Source: Baffinella frigidus
Taxonomy: Eukaryota > Cryptophyceae > Cryptomonadales > Baffinellaceae
Direction: 5' to 3'
NCBI GenBank assembly: GCA_026770585.1
Contig: MU646836.1
Coordinates: 170,210-192,412 of the forward strand
DNA length: 22,203 nt
In this document: positions 2,462 to 22,047 of the stretch, in pieces
How the letters are laid out: the number at the start of each line of letters is the position of its first letter
Position numbering within the stretch: position 1 is the first letter of the stretch
Notes under the pieces: model-generated
Databases searched by the model: none
Told to the model about the DNA's origin: nothing
Seen by the model: the letters and a program-made list of their open reading frames with translations, nothing else
Position numbers and translations under genes: made by a program

Positions 2462-2673
2462 TCACGCCGGGTTGCGAGACACGAAGGGGTGCGACCCATC
2501 TTCCTCCTCGTCATCATCCGAAATATCGTACACGGGCATGAGCGAAAGGTCAACTTTCGAGAAGAAGGTGTCTATTTTGCTCAGCCACTGCTCCGTTCTG
2601 CGGCTTTCGTCAACGGCGGCATTGGAGCCATTCGCCGGGGAAGCATTATCCAATGACTCCAATGGTGAGGCGC
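2462..2673 (-). CDS. Exon 60, probable last exon (acidic C-terminus, TGA stop)
   Basis: Acceptor CTTCTTCCCAG with a good pyrimidine tract; enters phase 1. It reads ASPLESLDNASPANGSNAAV, then LSKIDTFFSKVDLSLMPVYD and ISDDDEEEDGSHPFVSRNPA before TGA. The KIDTF/KVDL words echo SKVDTFP of exon 59. A donor inside (TTC|GTGTCT) could instead lead to the Cys-rich frame at 2112-2320. Confidence 0.75.

Positions 2674-22047: not shown

Follow-up and report, generated by a model that had tools for sequence, protein, structure and literature searches.

How does a single gene come to be divided into dozens of small exons, and of what are the intervening introns made? The origin of new introns is still debated, and few sources have been documented. 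Here, the question is raised by a locus in the cryptophyte Baffinella frigidus. The analyzed stretch of DNA, referred to as the window, comprises 22,203 nt (C524:170210-192412) of an assembly of 382 Mb in 1364 contigs; unless stated otherwise, positions are those of the window. The published genome of this alga is given as 534.5 Mb with 41.1% repeat, and the word “intron” is absent from the main text of that paper, as judged from a word search (PMC9756366).

Gene Model and Support for the Exon Joins

The window contains a REJ-domain gene on the minus strand, which runs from position 22047 to a TGA stop codon at 2462-2464. It is composed of 54 exons, 35 of which are shorter than 100 nt, with 6102 nt of coding sequence, i.e., 2033 codons in one open frame. 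The 53 introns have 52 GT donors and one GC donor, the latter apparently at intron 7 (19999-20001, after exon 7 at 20001-20067), and GCAG is found at 36 of the 53 acceptors. A search of the window with Rfam at gathering scores and for tRNAs gave no match.

Thirty-four of the exons (22047 down to 11511) were joined by hand, with all phases kept, before any homologue had been seen. When the joined sequence was compared with 5.8 billion proteins (7,993 candidates scored), a single match was obtained at E ≤ 1e-5, a protein of 1148 aa (P0001) encoded on a 3,959-bp contig in ENA. It is identical to the model at 532 of 867 aligned residues (61%), with three gap residues, all within exon 4 and none at a junction, and each of the 23 junctions that it spans is ungapped over 8 residues, 3 to 8 of which are identical. 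The exons, the strand and both end coordinates (22047 and 2462) of an earlier, sequence-only reading of the locus are confirmed, including the two joins quoted there, GGTAVQ/VHLAGFPP and GGART/VSRDSG, for which the counterparts in P0001 are GGTRVEVHLFGFAP and GGVRTVSRSD. That reading had also proposed many exons below 100 nt in compatible phases, as found here, and about 61 exons with about 2,040 codons; the one spliced frame stands, with the counts revised to 54 and 2033. P0001, which diverges from the model just past junction 24, could originate from cDNA or from intron-poor genomic DNA.

Runs of N flank the window on both sides. One extends up to contig base 169999, at most 210 bases from the window start, while contig bases 192413-206400, past window position 22203, are all N and constitute a 14-kb run that hides the 5′ end of the gene. 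Because P0001 has 257 residues upstream of the alignment with exon 1, the gene extends into this run and its 5′ part is missing.

P0001 spans all joins of exons 1-4 (21954-22047, 21585-21661, 21323-21403, 20620-21126; together 20620-22047) and exons 5-9 (20426-20485, 20205-20297, 20001-20067, 19702-19805, 19210-19619; together 19210-20485), which encode ectodomain. The REJ region (15179-19085) begins with exons 10-17 (18962-19085, 18476-18565, 18185-18251, 17987-18049, 17717-17744, 17480-17567, 17315-17375, 17001-17062), also joined by P0001, and continues with exons 18-24 (16700-16811, 16470-16571, 16305-16352, 15977-16035, 15623-15710, 15392-15439, 15179-15255), where the joins are supported both by P0001 and by a public record of 326 aa, “REJ domain-containing protein [Baffinella frigidus]” (P0003), another fragment of the same locus. 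P0003 supports nine joins in all (18-27), with identical letters over 8 residues, including joins 24-27 to exons 25-27 (14916-14987, 14740-14781, 13981-14412; together 13981-14987), and then departs from the frame.

A second public record, “hypothetical protein T484DRAFT_3153115 [Baffinella frigidus]” (P0002, 588 aa), is identical to the window, exon by exon, at 567 of 567 aligned residues. It supports the 13 joins of exons 38-51, again with identical letters over 8 residues, and beyond these reads into a repeat intron; because a portion of these exons was adjusted to P0002, the support is not independent there. The record covers exons 38-40 (10086-10190, 9639-9705, 8973-9079; together 8973-10190), exon 41 (8408-8530, 100% identity) and, up to exon 51, exons 42-54 (7898-7964, 7509-7784, 7004-7118, 6450-6513, 6111-6285, 5705-5824, 5480-5585, 4828-4895, 4232-4486, 4045-4104, 3751-3861, 3052-3355, 2462-2673; together 2462-7964). 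In total, 39 of the 53 joins find support in P0001, P0002 or P0003. The remaining 14 (27-38 and 51-54), which include the link between the two halves of the gene, are based on phase and splice sites. They comprise the membrane-proximal exons 28-37 (13537-13602, 13227-13293, 12722-12812, 12314-12404, 12034-12048, 11756-11830, 11511-11567, 11110-11172, 10843-10902, 10745-10770; together 10745-13602), the least certain stretch, of which exons 35-37 are the weakest part.

Ab initio gene finding with a semi-HMM was discarded as proof and used as a guide only, as it predicts too many tiny exons and gives the opposite strand almost the same score (1696 for the minus strand and 1472 for the plus strand, compared to 1043-1172 for five order-1 Markov controls). 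The score separates the signal poorly, and proof of the gene therefore rests on homology.

One Gene or Two

The public models suggest a different arrangement, i.e., two adjacent genes, where an ectodomain gene ends near 13981 and a membrane gene starts near 10183. P0003 and P0002 are distinct records on one contig, given as 315,129 bp (the contig analyzed here is 276,567 bp), and joins 27-38 are spanned by no protein found. However, P0002 begins at an internal ATG of exon 38, an exon with a consensus acceptor, and finishes inside a repeat intron, while P0003 begins in an intron and finishes out of frame within exon 27; both records therefore look like truncated predictions. Furthermore, exons 28-37 hold phase between the halves, and an ectodomain followed by a membrane helix is the usual order. 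Two genes are thus improbable, and both halves would belong to one transcript. The gene is a new member of the REJ family that has been split by public annotation into at least two pieces (326 and 588 aa), as the sequence-only reading had anticipated in stating that ab initio gene finders would probably overlook or divide it.

One exon relic and a possible second one were noted in this part of the locus. Exon 28 has a copy at 13709-13770 (86% over 88 nt) that runs into a stop and that represents a decayed tandem exon duplication within an intron. In the intron preceding exon 38, the stretch 10268-10294 (GTGCCTCATGCTGG) is similar to the beginning of that exon (GTGCGTGATGCTGG) and is perhaps a second such relic. 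The first of these, together with the 5′ end hidden by the N run, could be taken to indicate a pseudogene. Given that the 54 exons form a single open frame (2033 codons) with consensus splice sites and with 61% identity to P0001, this reading is extremely unlikely.

Domain Organization of the Encoded Protein

At the level of its sequence, the joined protein certainly belongs to the REJ family: Pfam PF02010 matches with 91.5 bits (E = 5.8e-26, cut-off 25), a match clipped by the end of the query, and the corresponding segment of P0001 (residues 743-1084) scores 128.6 bits. A frame-by-frame REJ search of the genome yielded eight matches on seven contigs, and the window was not among them because here the domain is split over exons, consistent with the earlier claim that the domain signatures appear only after joining.

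The remainder of the ectodomain is less clearly defined. The TIG profile scores 14.7 bits in the joined protein and 12.9 in P0001 (cut-off 20.9), with the IPT/TIG-like segment in exons 1-4, and a weak fn3-like signal in exons 5-9 reaches 19.9 bits (cut-off 25); an AlphaFold model of exon 4 (mean pLDDT 37) was too poor for a fold search. No match to GPS (PF01825) was obtained in the joined protein with an E limit of 10, where the program drops most matches above ~0.1, and P0002, which covers exons 38-51, gave no Pfam match at all. A C..C..CxC pattern nevertheless occupies the expected GPS place in exons 38-40, with SRAGF replacing HLTSF; the paralogue C1181 has CQTTHLTSFTV (Pfam GPS 13.4 bits, cut-off 22.5). 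The protein would probably not be self-cleaving. No PLAT or channel domain was found in the scanned parts of the protein (all within exons 1-51). One strong membrane helix is predicted from the 2033-codon model, in exon 41, where hydropathy peaks at 2.54; three lower peaks, of 1.71-1.84, are located in exons 4 and 15.

The predicted architecture is that of an ectodomain of ~1,359 residues or more, with weak Ig/IPT-like segments and REJ, followed by a degenerate GPS-like segment, one helix, and an acidic C-terminal tail of 651 residues (net charge −43; exons 42-54). Of the REJ/IPT/GPS receptor proposed in the sequence-only reading, the REJ part is confirmed, the IPT part stays below the cut-off, and the GPS assignment is not supported by a profile. 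“Receptor” derives from the architecture, according to which the protein would act in adhesion or recognition.

Telomere-like Repeats in the Introns

TTTAGGG-like sequence makes up 30.1% of the plus strand of the window but 1.1% of the minus strand, compared to 3.4-4.8% in five shuffles. As read from the repeat unit alone, TTTAGGG is presumably the telomere unit of B. frigidus. In the sense direction of the gene (CCCTAAA), the repeat accounts for 44.0% of intron bases but only 1.6% of exon bases. Stretches of at least 20 nt are found in sense in 39 of the 53 introns and in antisense in three. In 17 introns (CCCTAAA)n sequence constitutes at least 80% of the length, and among these, 13 have the array no more than 3 nt from the donor, 13 no more than 3 nt from the acceptor, and nine combine both. 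Examples are intron 15 (17376-17479, 104 nt, all telomere-like), intron 20 (16036-16304, 269 nt, almost all), intron 25 (14782-14915, 134 nt, all, starting with GTAAACCCTAAA), and intron 11 (18252-18475, 224 nt, 99%), which interrupts the GGART/VSRDSG join. Fourteen introns hold less than 10% repeat, i.e., the repeats account for some, not all, of the introns of this gene.

Orientation of the Repeats across Genes

The strand preference was examined in genes for which homology defines the coding strand, by counting repeat blocks of at least 28 nt. In total, 97 blocks are sense and 2 antisense, with sense prevailing in 8 of 8 genes, a count in which blocks of one gene are not independent and to which REJ relatives contribute five of the eight genes. 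This gene contributes 54 sense blocks and one antisense block; the other genes are sense in 7 of 7 cases (43 blocks to 1). The REJ paralogues, named after their contigs, show sense:antisense counts of 17:0 (C1), 3:0 (C647), 2:0 (C1181) and 5:0 (C1298). The remaining genes encode an M24 peptidase (10:0), NMD3 (5:1) and SpoU (1:0); the strands of the latter two were each set by two segments under the curated cut-off, with directions agreeing. The M24 metallopeptidase gene (L007, 4247-8788, minus strand) is a neighbor on the same contig, with sense telomere-like repeats between its exons.

The Pfam assignments were made for 60 chosen coding-like segments at eight loci, from 81 listed for ten (all but L006 and L026). 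L009, L020 and L028 gave no Pfam match and are outside the count, as are L015 and L032, which had weak matches in one segment each and where the direction agreed (317 nt versus 30 nt and 237 nt versus 0 nt, respectively); L032 was also matched weakly on the opposite strand, in a low-complexity run. Setting the strand from coding potential alone gave too few calls and was replaced by the homology-based count. By coding potential, 20 stretches picked blind to repeats (12 of them all N) had 12 blocks sense, 1 antisense and 45 without a call, and the window 36, 1 and 24; the corresponding numbers for the contig neighbors were 1, 1 and 9 (L007), 4, 0 and 13 (L009), and 0, 0 and 2 (L006).

Paralogues and the Age of the Introns

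Four of the seven contigs with REJ matches were read (all but C197, C343 and C5). The nearest paralogue, as found with P0001, is C1, with 40-59% identity per piece, compared to 26-36% for C647. An open frame of 8,745 aa at C1 was dismissed: the locus has 1,809 N, and among frames containing fewer than 20 unknown residues none extends beyond 330 codons without a stop. The giant frame very likely results from reading through N.

At 15 junctions (5, 6, 9-16 and 18-22) the coding sequence is uninterrupted in both C1 and C647; close to these junctions, C1 has no inserted codons and C647 has no more than 11. Eleven of these introns are at least 59% telomere-like (6, 9, 10, 11, 13, 14, 15, 16, 18, 19 and 20) and four are repeat-poor (5, 12, 21 and 22; coverage 0 to 0.21). 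No intron is present at any of the 20 junctions spanned by C647 or of the 16 spanned by C1298. In C1181 an intron is missing at 5 junctions; the other 15 that it spans were left out of the count, as the alignment there contains two stops. With a branching order where C647 is the outgroup, taken from identity and not from a tree, the simplest reading suggests that the 15 introns were gained in this gene.

Alternatively, the introns could be old, where the paralogues lost them via cDNA and the repeats expanded later within introns already present. Recombination with cDNA can delete a run of introns in one event, and C1 and C647 do lack runs of adjacent introns. This scenario, however, requires losses in C1, C647 and C1298 (16 of 16 spanned introns missing), and the nine introns in which the repeat ends 3 nt or less from each splice site retain hardly any sequence of an older intron; we consider it unlikely, if not markedly so. 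Gain would not apply to every intron: the C1 alignments start at residue 254, and intron 4 may be common to C1. If so, it predates that split, and the introns are therefore not all of one age. The locus is probably a single nuclear REJ-family gene cut by 53 introns, about a third of which are mostly sense telomere-like arrays, proposed to have arisen from repeat blocks that entered exons.

A Possible Origin of the Repeat Introns

A more general, tentative proposal, which we put at somewhat below even chances, is that Baffinella gains spliceosomal introns genome-wide from telomere-type repeats that enter exons and are kept only as C-strand RNA, thereby cutting genes into dozens of small exons. 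To the observed orientation and absence from paralogues, this proposal would add insertion and selection. The arguments that we offer for it are as follows. Telomere-type blocks would have entered exons. In the CCCTAAA orientation, an array would supply CTAAAC branch-point-like sites, and one base change would yield a GTAAAC donor; sense inserts could thus be spliced from the start. Inserts of the G-strand would instead place G-rich RNA in the transcript (RNA G-quadruplex) and be lost.

Another potential source is mobile introner elements. Introns 21, 32 and 44 have in common an acceptor-end module of ~69 nt (15707-15775, 11827-11895 and 6514-6582; 68-88% alike) with inverted-repeat-like ends (AGTTGACTGA/TCAGTCAACT). 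However, the copy in intron 32 has at least four genome matches, two of them within this gene, itself included, and what the repeat introns have in common is a unit, not an element. Introners were rejected as no dispersed element family emerged from the one module searched genome-wide, and such an origin is very improbable.

Two further similarities were recorded. Introns 33 and 3 are 86% alike over ~42 nt at the donor end (11723-11763 and 21289-21330). Downstream of the gene, a 31-nt inverted repeat (1067-1097 and 1373-1403, 275 nt apart, 90% complementary) is possibly a small mobile element.

Comparison with Known Systems

For a specialist, the surprise would lie in the oriented telomere-like introns, a better discovery than the gene itself. 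If the proposed origin is true, these introns represent a simple-repeat intron source with a strict strand preference, which is easy to recognize and testable in one genome. It would also be a warning that long genes are fragmented when cryptophyte genomes are annotated, as with this one, public as at least two truncated pieces. No paper joining Baffinella and introns was found in the literature searched (most subscription papers lie outside it), and oriented telomere-like introns were not described among the literature matches listed, as judged by titles and abstract openings.

In polycystin-1 and the sea-urchin REJ family, REJ is located in a long ectodomain before the membrane, and polycystin-1 also has PLAT, a channel and 11 helices. 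The Baffinella protein has the same order of REJ, ectodomain and membrane, but no PLAT, channel or 11-helix region was found and its GPS is degenerate. The male-gamete REJ/GPS protein Esi0130_0068 of Ectocarpus is likewise an algal surface protein with an extracellular REJ part; in the available text it is described with 6-7 predicted helices and with GPS and polycystin channel matches, in contrast to one strong helix and neither match here (PMC4700764).

Introners also represent intron gain in algae and other eukaryotes, but in Baffinella no dispersed element family was found; a word search of a study on introners gave no hit for cryptophy-, Baffinella, telomer-, tandem repeat or Guillardia (PMC9860276). 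As far as the available parts of the literature examined extend (PMC1805493, PMC12730881, PMC9860276), the nearest precedent is the (AT)n-rich introns of a chlorarachniophyte. In Amorphochlora amoebiformis, (AT)n simple repeats are reported from introns located at AG/G sites (PMC12730881, available text), and these introns, like those of Baffinella, are lineage-specific, simple-repeat-rich and algal. The Baffinella repeat differs from (AT)n in being telomere-like and oriented and in taking up almost the entire length of many introns.
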